From the NCBI GenBank assembly GCA_031291675.1, contig JARLIO010000034.1, forward strand, positions 248,001-312,000: DNA of 64,000 bases, in the 5' to 3' direction. Below the pieces are notes generated by a model. It was not told where the DNA came from, ran no database searches, and saw nothing but the letters and a program-made list of their open reading frames with translations. This DNA comes from Azospirillaceae bacterium. Lineage in GTDB: Bacteria; Pseudomonadota; Alphaproteobacteria; Azospirillales; Azospirillaceae. Made by a program: the position numbers and the translations under genes. Below are positions 8,174-12,772 of this stretch, one piece after another; position 1 is the stretch's first letter; the number at the start of each line of letters is the position of its first letter.

Positions 8174-8209
8174 GAGAACGGTTTTCAATTAAAGAGAGGA
8201 GGTGATCCA

Positions 8210-8287
8210 GTGTCTCATTGTCATCTGCCGCGGCCTTCGGCTCGCGTGACCTGGGTCTTCGCTTCCATCCGCGGATACCGCGCGTAA
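8210..8287 (+). CDS. Possible 25-residue small protein or leader peptide
   Basis: A GTG-initiated ORF of 25 codons (starting VSHCHLPRPSARV), preceded at 7 bases by GGAGG inside AGGAGGTGATCC (8197-8208). That stretch is complementary over 11 or more bases to the usual 3' end of 16S rRNA, far beyond a normal ribosome binding site. A promoter lies upstream and an intrinsic terminator begins 44 bases after the stop, so the unit could make a transcript of about 185 nt. A second GTG at 8202 would give a 15-codon ORF in another frame. The peptide is not recognised; it could be a leader peptide, an independent small protein, or part of a small RNA. Confidence 0.45.
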   Translation: MSHCHLPRPSARVTWVFASIRGYRA

Positions 8288-8330
8288 GTCGATGTTCCGC
8301 GCTTCGCGTTGAATCGCGGTTTGACAAGGG

Positions 8331-8366
8331 AACGGCTGCCCCACGGGGCGGCCGTTCTTTGTTTTG
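8331..8366 (+). terminator. Intrinsic terminator between small ORF and yaiI
   Basis: AACGGCTGCCCC pairs with the complementary arm ending GCCGTT at 8356 (one T-G pair), around a short loop, followed by CTTTGTTTT. It ends the small transcript from the promoter at 8145. It also argues that the long ORF reading through it is not the true start of yaiI. Confidence 0.75.
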
Positions 8367-10572: not shown

Positions 10573-11286
10573 TCATCCGCCGCGTGCCAGCAACCGGCTG
10601 ACATAAGCGGGAACCGCCGCCGTCGCCGGACCATAGATGGTCTCATCGAACCGGCTGGCGCCTTCAGAGGGTTCCAGATTCAGCTCGACGGTGTGTGCCT
10701 TGCCGATCGACTGCACCGACTGAACAAAGCCGGCCGCCGGATAGACATGCCCCGAGGTGCCGATCGCGATGAACAGGGCACAGGTTTCGAGTGCCCGATA
10801 GATGCGCTCCATCTCCAGCGGCATTTCGCCGAACCAGACGATGTCGGGTCGCATCGCCCCGACCCGGCCGCAGCTCGCGCAGCGATCGGTCACGCCGAGG
10901 GCGCCATGCCATTCGACGGTCTGGCCACAGGAGGCGCAGCGCGCCTTGAGCAACTCGCCATGCATATGGATCAGATTGCGCGATCCCGCCCGCTCGTGAA
11001 GGTCATCGATGTTCTGGGTCACGATCAGCACCTCGGCCGGCCAGCGCCGTTCCAACTCGGCCAGCGCGTGGTGGGCCGGATTGGGTTCGACCCCGGGATC
11101 GCCAAGCTGGGCGCGCCGGTCATTATAGAAGGCATGGACCTGATCCGGATCCCGGTCAAAACCCTCGGGAGTCGCAACATCCTCCAGCCGCACCTTGGCC
11201 CAGATCCCATCGACGCAACGAAACGTATCCAGTCCGGATTCCTTGCTGATCCCCGCACCCGTGAGGATAACGATCGGTCCCTGCAC
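10573..11286 (-). CDS. cobB: NAD-dependent protein deacylase, class III sirtuin (CobB-like)
   Basis: A sirtuin of about 237 residues. NAD-binding motifs are GAGISKESGLDTFR and TQNIDDLHERAG; the catalytic His is in HMHGEL; a zinc site is formed by two CASC pairs. The FYNDRR motif supplies the Tyr and Arg that in SIRT5/CobB-type enzymes recognise succinyl- or malonyl-lysine, so desuccinylase activity is likely besides deacetylation. The GTG start at 11286 has GGAG eight bases upstream; a longer in-frame ORF to 11430 would add 48 non-homologous residues. Confidence 0.92.
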   Translation of the reverse strand: MQGPIVILTGAGISKESGLDTFRCVDGIWAKVRLEDVATPEGFDRDPDQVHAFYNDRRAQLGDPGVEPNPAHHALAELERRWPAEVLIVTQNIDDLHERAGSRNLIHMHGELLKARCASCGQTVEWHGALGVTDRCASCGRVGAMRPDIVWFGEMPLEMERIYRALETCALFIAIGTSGHVYPAAGFVQSVQSIGKAHTVELNLEPSEGASRFDETIYGPATAAVPAYVSRLLARGG

Positions 11287-11478
11287 GTGACACACTCCTT
11301 CAACCGTCGACGCACCGCGCGCCGCGCCAACGCCACCCCCCGGCAATGGCAGGGCGACGGCGGGGCCGACCATACGATTCCATCCCGGATGCCGCCAGAA
11401 TGAACCGTGCCGGCGCGCGCAAAAGATCAAAGGATTCTGGTTGGATGCCGGTCACCAAACCGCTATAAGGGCGGACCA

Positions 11479-11773
11479 GTCCGCGTAGCTCAGTCGGATA
11501 GAGCACAGGATTCCTTGTGGTAAACTGGGCGTTGCATGTGGAAACCGTGCAACGGATCTGCTCAAAGTCGGGGAACGCTGCGACGCATCTGCGTCATGCC
11601 AATCCCGAGCCAAGCCCCGAGTCGGGGAAGGTGTAGAGACTGGATGGGCAGCACCTACGGGTTTCGACCTAGGGTGAAGGGACAGTCCAGACCACGAACG
11701 CCAGCAGGCGGCGGCGAAAGCCGAAGTGGTATGAATCCTGGGGCCGTGGGTTCGAATCCCGCCGCGGACACCA
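11479..11773 (+). tRNA. tRNA-Arg(CCU) interrupted by a group I intron
   Basis: Two exons, 11479-11515 and 11734-11773, join to a 77-nt tRNA with encoded CCA. The acceptor GTCCGCG pairs with CGCGGAC. The D stem is GCTC/GAGC, the anticodon stem CAGGA/TCCTG with loop TT-CCT-AA, the variable loop 5 nt, and the T arm GTGGG-TTCGAAT-CCCGC. The anticodon CCU reads AGG arginine codons. The 218-nt insert falls directly after the third anticodon base. A tRNA scanner that ignores group I introns would miss this gene. The following crcB gene is on the opposite strand. Confidence 0.95.
11516..11733 (+). ncRNA. Self-splicing group I intron (tRNA-type, IC3-like)
   Basis: The 218-nt intron follows U36 of the anticodon and ends in G (the omega G). 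Core elements can be traced: a GGG guide (11527-11529) pairs with exon CCU with the U-G pair at the 5' splice site (P1). A P2 hairpin begins GTTGCA and ends TGCAAC. P3 is CTGCTC with GGGCAG. P4/P6 includes GAGCCAAGCC. P7 is AGACTG with CAGTCC. P8 begins CACCTAC and ends AGGGTG. The segment AAGGTGTAGAGACT is shared with the Azoarcus tRNA-Ile intron. No homing endonuclease ORF is present. Introns at this site are known in Agrobacterium tRNA-Arg(CCU). Confidence 0.93.
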
Positions 11774-11836: not shown

Positions 11837-12232
11837 TCATCCTCTCATTTGATTCAGGGTCGCCGCCAGGACATGGCCGATCCACACGAAAAGCAGGCAC
11901 AACACCACCGACAGCACGACATTGGCCCCGGCATGAAGCCATTCCCCGTCGCGGGCCAGGGCCAGGGTTTGCAGGCTGAAGCTGGAAAAGGTGGTGTAGC
12001 CGCCACAAATGCCGACCATGACAAAGGTCCGCAGATCCGGCGAGACCACAAGCCGCCCATCAAGACCGGTCAAGGTCGCGGTAAACCCGATCAGGAACGA
12101 CCCGGTAACATTGATGACCAGCGTGCCCCAGGGGAATGCCGGCCCCAGGGCCTCGGCGATCAGGCTGGACAGCCAGAAGCGAAAAACACTGCCAATCGCA
12201 CCGCCGACGGCAACCCAGCAATAAGTGACCAC
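11837..12232 (-). CDS. crcB: Fluoride ion transporter CrcB (Fluc)
   Basis: A 131-residue, four-helix membrane protein. It carries the Fluc motifs GGAIGSVFRFWLS, GTLVINVTGSFLIG (the conserved Asn) and GICGGYTTFSSFSLQ (the pore Phe/Ser region with a bound Na+ site). It forms dual-topology dimers that export fluoride. The GTG start at 12232 has GAGGGAG six to seven bases upstream and gives the normal family length; the longer frame adds a hydrophilic leader not seen in CrcB. No crcB (fluoride) riboswitch pattern was found in the 150 bases upstream. Confidence 0.93.
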   Translation of the reverse strand: MVTYCWVAVGGAIGSVFRFWLSSLIAEALGPAFPWGTLVINVTGSFLIGFTATLTGLDGRLVVSPDLRTFVMVGICGGYTTFSSFSLQTLALARDGEWLHAGANVVLSVVLCLLFVWIGHVLAATLNQMRG

Positions 12233-12772
12233 CAGAGACTCCCTCAGAACCAGAATGCCGGACGCAGCGCGACGGGAAACCCCGCCGGGACCCCGGGGTC
12301 GCCGCCACCGGACCGACCGGCCGCGCCATAACGCAACCCACGGACACACAAAGGCCCGCGACTTCGCGGGCCACCGCCGTGCAACCGGAACCGTCGACCG
12401 TCCCCGGTGCCCCGGATCAGGATCGGCAGACCCGATTCCCTCGCGCGCACAAAGCTACACCGCCGCTTCGCAGAATCAACCCGCTTTGCGCCGGTCACAA
12501 TGTCTGCGGCCCGGGCGGCTGCGACGTGTCAGCGCGATCTCACCATAAACGCGAGAATTCTCCGTGCCGACCGGCCGGAAGCATGAAGAAGAACTGGACC
12601 TTCTCGGTACAGTTCCGGATGTTAGCCGTGATTCGGTGTCGGTGTGTGTCACCTGCCGCAACGGCTTGTGGTCGCCGCCGTCATGTTGGGAACAGGATCG
12701 GAATTATCCGGCGGCCCGGATCTGTTGTGGTTGGGCGCAGCCACCGGCGCCGCCCGAGGAAAGAATACCTCC
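12233..12772. other. Long intergenic region between crcB and motA
   Basis: About 540 bases with divergent genes on either side. It contains a strong hairpin at 12353-12372. The minus strand upstream of that hairpin has an 84-codon open frame (12244-12498) that I do not trust as a gene because the hairpin lies inside it. The motA side has an ORF extension without family similarity. No tRNA or riboswitch was recognised. Confidence 0.4.
12353..12372 (-). terminator. GC-rich hairpin, terminator-like on the minus strand
   Basis: A perfect 8-bp stem GGCCCGCG / CGCGGGCC with a 4-nt loop. Read on the minus strand it is followed by TTTGTGTG, a weak U-tract. It would end a short minus-strand transcript starting upstream of crcB; no gene for that transcript is recognised. 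Confidence 0.45.

Follow-up and report, generated by a model that had tools for sequence, protein, structure and literature searches.

Closest described systems

A tRNA-Arg(CCU) intron of Agrobacterium tumefaciens was reportedly described by Reinhold-Hurek and Shub in 1992, and alphaproteobacterial tRNA-Arg(CCU) group I introns are said to have been treated by Paquin, Heinfling and Shub in 1999. The label IC3 for introns lodged in tRNA anticodon loops follows the title of a work cited in PMC3984707. The intron described here is a further example of a kind of element already in print and known since 1992. It shares with the alphaproteobacterial Arg(CCU) introns, such as those of Agrobacterium, the same tRNA, the same insertion after the anticodon and the same clade; it differs in its host family, that of Azospirillum and Skermanella, and in nothing further of substance. 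The group IC3 introns of Azoarcus tRNA-Ile(CAU) and cyanobacterial tRNA-Leu(UAA) are also small and also lie in a tRNA anticodon loop (Azoarcus being likened by description), but they occupy another tRNA or another insertion site.

The closest characterized relative is BbgpI of Bartonella bacilliformis. According to its report, BbgpI is a group I intron whose host, a tRNA-Arg(CCU) gene, had gone unannotated, its splicing was demonstrated in vitro and in vivo, tRNAscan-SE found the tRNA only once the sequence had been spliced in silico, and the tRNA-Arg(CCU) intron family was first found in Agrobacterium (PMC7717549). Both are group I introns in a tRNA-Arg(CCU) gene that is recognized only after in silico splicing, whereas the splicing of BbgpI has been demonstrated and that of our intron is predicted only. 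We found nothing on Azospirillum tRNA group I introns in the literature covered, which included few subscription papers and does not establish absence from print.

A tRNA-Arg(CCU) gene split by a 218-nt insert

The DNA analyzed (the window) is a 64-kb stretch of an Azospirillaceae genome. Positions 11479-11773 comprise a 5' exon of 37 nt and a 3' exon of 40 nt with an encoded CCA, parted between U36 and A37 by an insert of 218 nt:

11479..11515 (+): 5' exon of tRNA-Arg(CCU), running from the acceptor 5' strand through the D arm and the anticodon stem 5' strand into the loop as far as U36 (ARAGORN on the spliced sequence)
11513..11529 (+): P1, exon CCU (11513-11515) with guide GGG (11527-11529) and a U.G pair at the 5' splice site (exon/guide pairs; coordinates counted by hand)
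11514..11736 (+): extent of the best covariance-model match, containing core helices P2-P9 and the P3/P7 pseudoknot
11516..11733 (+): group I intron of the bacterial tRNA type, 218 nt, starting after U36 with G as its last base (RF00028, leave-out model R2, covariation)
11734..11773 (+): 3' exon, running from A37 and A38 through the anticodon stem 3' strand, variable loop and T arm to the acceptor 3' strand, with CCA encoded (ARAGORN; 100% BLAST match to positions 38-77 of the spliced query)

When the exons are joined in silico, ARAGORN calls a 77-nt tRNA-Arg(cct) with a perfect cloverleaf. The original prediction, made from the sequence alone, had given these coordinates, the intron length and the split after the third anticodon base (U36), all of which proved correct to the base; it was likewise right that a U ends the 5' exon (CCU|, with its U.G splice-site pair) and a G ends the intron (...TATG|). 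Its expectation that standard annotation would call neither tRNA nor intron holds for ARAGORN, which at default settings finds no tRNA anywhere in the window, and for Rfam, which at gathering thresholds reports neither element. With introns allowed, ARAGORN calls a tRNA-His(atg), a mis-parse of this locus.

Just two ORFs of at least 20 aa are enclosed in the intron, of 39 aa (11517-11636) and 30 aa (11562-11654). The intron is thus too small for a homing endonuclease, and the only longer overlapping ORFs (147 and 117 aa), which extend beyond it, match no Pfam family, in agreement with the earlier claim that no endonuclease is encoded. A scan of the locus for sigma-70-like promoters and terminators was empty, which says little.

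The tRNA is flanked by genes for SIR2 (10573-11430, -) and CrcB (11837-12349, -). Neither was found within ~1.5 kb of the tRNA at any of 28 other loci (most with ~1.5 kb of flank). At the window's own locus, the positive control, the search did recover both genes; a run on 26 loci that lacked this control was empty as well. The locus is therefore not syntenic with its relatives, whose neighborhoods vary. Elsewhere in the window, at 8186-8355 (+), lies a match to Rfam CC2171, a Caulobacter sRNA (79.6 bits). Near its 5' end stands AGGAGGUGAUCC, an extended Shine-Dalgarno-like stretch that, we presume, could pair with the 16S rRNA tail.

The insert is a group I intron

In a search of a 361-base stretch with an E-value threshold, the full RF00028 (group I intron) model matched positions 11506-11704 with 30.4 bits (E = 4.1e-6; genome-wide, E = 1.5e-5), a significant match though below the Rfam gathering score of 50. 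This cut-off likewise misses an Agrobacterium cavarae member and the Leu(UAA) and Thr(UGU) introns of the same Azospirillaceae genome, so the failure reflects a limit of the model and not a feature that defines the class. A leave-out model (R2), built from 12 introns of relatives without any intron of the genome studied, scored the Arg(CCU) intron at 223.6 bits (E = 1.2e-66), the second-best match within the window reaching 8.6 bits. The covariance search thus bore out the original prediction with both models.

We examined pairing in a 15-intron alignment (the Arg(CCU) intron, the genome's two others and 12 from relatives), made with MAFFT from sequence alone, with the helices named by hand on the window sequence. 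Standard pairs filled 94.1% of the pair cells, and 31 of the 53 pairs changed on both sides, compared with 18.1 (sd 2.2) in shuffles, none of 500 of which reached 31. Sliding the partners by 1-3 columns lowered pairing to 33-44% (max 43.8%). Per-helix pairing was 98.9% for P3 and 100% for each of P4, P6, P7 and P8, and looser in the P2 and P5 extensions. When 88 introns were aligned to the model, an alignment that leans to structure, 94.7% of cells were paired and 43/53 pairs changed on both sides. In both sets P2-P9 covary across relatives, including P3, P8 and the P3/P7 pseudoknot with P7; the P1, P2, P3, P7 and P8 pairings that had been predicted are all present, and the last four covary. 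The minimum-energy fold, a poor guide to the core, lacked the native one.

The P1 guide tracks the exon across the 15 introns: GGG stands opposite exon CCU and, in the same columns, GAG opposite exon CUU (Leu, Thr(UGU) and Lys(UUU)), while in the lone Lys(CUU) intron, with exon UCU, the guide pairs only when read one base upstream. P1 of the Arg(CCU) intron has a U-U mismatch beside the splice-site pair, also present in the sequences of several relatives. The intron departs at none of the 75 conserved columns, those in which the other introns agree at 95% or more; the 85 other introns depart at a mean of 1.5 and up to 13 columns. The anatomy of the locus, its covariation, its homology and its intact conserved core are hereby established, as is, by the search described below, its standing as the sole Arg(CCU) gene found.

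Splicing and rival explanations

The reading we favor, at a probability of about 95%, is that this tRNA-Arg(CCU) gene is split between U36 and A37 by a small, endonuclease-less, self-splicing group I intron of the bacterial tRNA (IC3-like) type. We infer that the gene is transcribed, that the RNA is catalytic and that the exons are ligated, the chemical steps of splicing being drawn from membership in the group I class. The pre-tRNA would fold such that exon CCU pairs with the intron guide GGG, placing the U.G pair at the splice site; guanosine bound in P7 would attack after U36, and the freed U36 would in turn attack after the last intron G, yielding the 77-nt tRNA and the free intron. Ligation of U36 to A37 would restore the anticodon loop UUCCUAA.

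Could the insert instead be decayed, an inactive intron in a tRNA pseudogene that does little harm, AGG being a rare codon that tRNA-Arg(UCU) may be able to read? Among the 2,582 codons of seven ORFs of the window AGG occurs only twice, and the genome has a tRNA-Arg(UCU) gene, so that Arg(CCU) itself may be dispensable. Yet the exons form a perfect cloverleaf down to the encoded CCA, all 75 conserved columns of the intron are intact, and both tRNA halves are retained in 18/18 family genomes with a split Arg(CCU), this one among them, which together leave decay a very unlikely explanation. Still less probable is excision by a protein endonuclease and ligase in the manner of archaeal and eukaryotic tRNA introns: one source gives 37/38 as the canonical protein-spliced site, which the anticodon-adjacent position here resembles, but it also describes bacterial tRNA introns as self-splicing group I introns (PMC4033280), and the covariation reveals a full group I ribozyme. 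As for a chance pairing of unrelated tRNA-like halves around a GC-rich stretch, with which the silence of Rfam and ARAGORN at default settings would agree, it is refuted by the E-value of 1.2e-66 from a model devoid of this genome's introns, and relatives carry 87% identical introns at the same site. The Arg(CCU) intron is predicted, almost certainly correctly, to be a self-excising RNA.

The only Arg(CCU) gene found, and two further introns

The anticodons CCU, UAA and UGU were absent from all 41 above-threshold tRNA matches in the 5.87-Mb assembly, which is 97.7% complete and could hide a copy in a gap. BLAST of the spliced gene against the genome returned its two halves at 100% and other tRNAs at no more than 76% among the matches listed. 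A continuous tRNA-Arg(CCU) gene elsewhere, which the original prediction had named as a result that would count against it, was thus found neither among the 41 other tRNAs nor by BLAST, and the split gene is the only Arg(CCU) gene found in the genome. Two other tRNA genes of this genome are split as well:

G000:C5:17321-17561 (L002, L082): tRNA-Thr(UGU), with a group I intron of 233 nt inserted after U34
G000:C17:59816-60101 (L001, L084): tRNA-Leu(UAA), with a group I intron of 275 nt inserted after U34

Each of the three intron-split tRNA genes is the sole gene found for its anticodon. Recognizing the intron restores a tRNA gene missed by ARAGORN and at Rfam thresholds, and without its split genes the genome would seem to have no tRNA for Arg(CCU), Leu(UAA) or Thr(UGU). 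Three model matches per genome are not unique, occurring also in G129, G644 and G820, where some are weak. The Leu(UAA) intron departs at 2/75 conserved columns, and Thr(UGU) is the host in only 1 of 119 survey matches (see below). An origin of the three introns by internal duplication is unsupported, the window intron being 70.0% identical to the Thr and 68.7% to the Leu intron, versus 87.3% to the nearest Arg(CCU) intron outside the genome.

Under the usual wobble rules, UUA and ACA need the UAA and UGU anticodons. The Thr(UGU) intron is inserted after U34, as in Leu(UAA), and shows the same CUU/GAG guide pairing. We tentatively suggest, at somewhat under an even chance, that all three tRNAs are made only by way of ribozymes, such that UUA and ACA would be unreadable without self-splicing RNA, and that the Thr(UGU) intron was reverse-spliced from a Leu(UAA)-type intron. 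If true, the intron would have moved in nature from one tRNA to another, a three-base guide directing it.

Relatives and survey

The 15-intron model had matches in 22 of the 82 family genomes, in 49 of 385 across the class (Alphaproteobacteria) and in 42 of 398 from a sample of the phylum, in searches whose filters lose weak matches in large genome sets. Arg(CCU) accounts for 18 of the 26 family matches. Moreover, a pattern joining the intron 3' end to the Arg(CCU) exon recovered 67 stretches in the genome collection, from genera that include Agrobacterium, Rhizobium, Methylobacterium, Acetobacter, Asaia, Bartonella, Azospirillum and Skermanella.

A FastTree tree of 88 introns, drawn from 80 of the 119 survey matches and 8 of the 67 named loci (unplaced matches and some near-duplicates excluded), puts the window intron, by topology alone, among Azospirillaceae Arg(CCU) introns, with Rhizobium and Agrobacterium within the same clade. 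The Agrobacterium introns are 77.6-78.8% identical to it over ~222 columns, which, with the shared clade, upholds the kinship to Agrobacterium tRNA introns that had been proposed. Continuous, intronless alleles match the spliced sequence at 97% over all 77 nt in one relative and at 96% over 72 nt in seven; these are empty sites, three of which were read in sequence, making the presence of the intron patchy. Most likely, the lineage has retained the Arg(CCU) intron at a homologous site, and relatives have lost or gained it in a patchy manner.

Our tRNA assignment script placed 92 of the 119 survey matches and left 27 unplaced; among those placed, one (tRNA-Stop) is spurious and one (Arg(tct), without a guide match) doubtful, and three of the unplaced were assigned by eye (L080 to Leu, L086 to Arg and L110 to Lys(UUU)). 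We did not lean on the script's guide check, which is passed by chance in roughly 3/10 cases since it accepts a match anywhere within ~22 intron nucleotides and was itself used in ranking splice sites. The survey matches include tRNAs with a CAU anticodon and an intron after 36, and many introns of Leu(UAA), which lie after 34. Further hosts were Thr(GGU) (5 matches), Thr(CGU) (2), Lys(UUU) (7) and Lys(CUU) (4), with related group I introns at the following positions:

Lys(CUU), split after 35: L081, L102, L111, L112
Lys(UUU), split after 34: L104, L120
Lys(UUU), split after 35: L124-L128
Thr(GGU), split after 36: L109, L114, L117, L118, L121
Thr(CGU), split after 36: L119, L123

The Lys and Thr introns occupy three anticodon-loop positions. 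A cyanobacterial tRNA-Lys(CTT) intron is reported in another source (PMC5733544), and we found no alphaproteobacterial Thr or Lys tRNA introns in literature that covered few subscription papers. Introns in Thr and Lys tRNAs make guide-directed spread between anticodon loops testable. Together with the 49/385 genomes matched, the survey suggests that tRNA group I introns are common and overlooked in Alphaproteobacteria.

Split tRNA genes on resistance plasmids and, apparently, in a phage

In a plasmid collection, the intron core finds a match in 1,272 of 72,556 records, with an identity of 80-90% in 1,261 of these. On pCTX-M3 (L265:2925-3223) we observed an unannotated tRNA-Leu(UAA) gene in which U34 is followed by a group I intron of ~221 nt, scoring 210.9 bits with model R1; the exons were read by eye, ARAGORN mis-parsing the gene. 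This split gene matches 1,280/72,556 plasmid records and 635/5,426 complete E. coli genomes. All six plasmid or chromosome records inspected share a block consisting of a DUF3883 gene, two small ORFs, the split tRNA-Leu(UAA), an AAA ATPase gene and aac(3)-IId. A search for literature on a tmrB-linked tRNA intron, again with few subscription papers, found nothing.

Among 385 genomes of Alphaproteobacteria, the class to which the search was limited, the plasmid gene finds its best match at 86% along the full length of the split gene, suggesting an origin of the block in this class. The dedicated intron model revealed an unannotated split tRNA-Leu(UAA) on resistance plasmids.

In Gordonia phage Daredevil (L267:879-1190), near genes for an integrase and an HNH endonuclease, an apparent, unannotated tRNA-Lys(UUU) gene contains a group I intron (150.8 bits). 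Possibly, the phage serves as a carrier of the intron between hosts.
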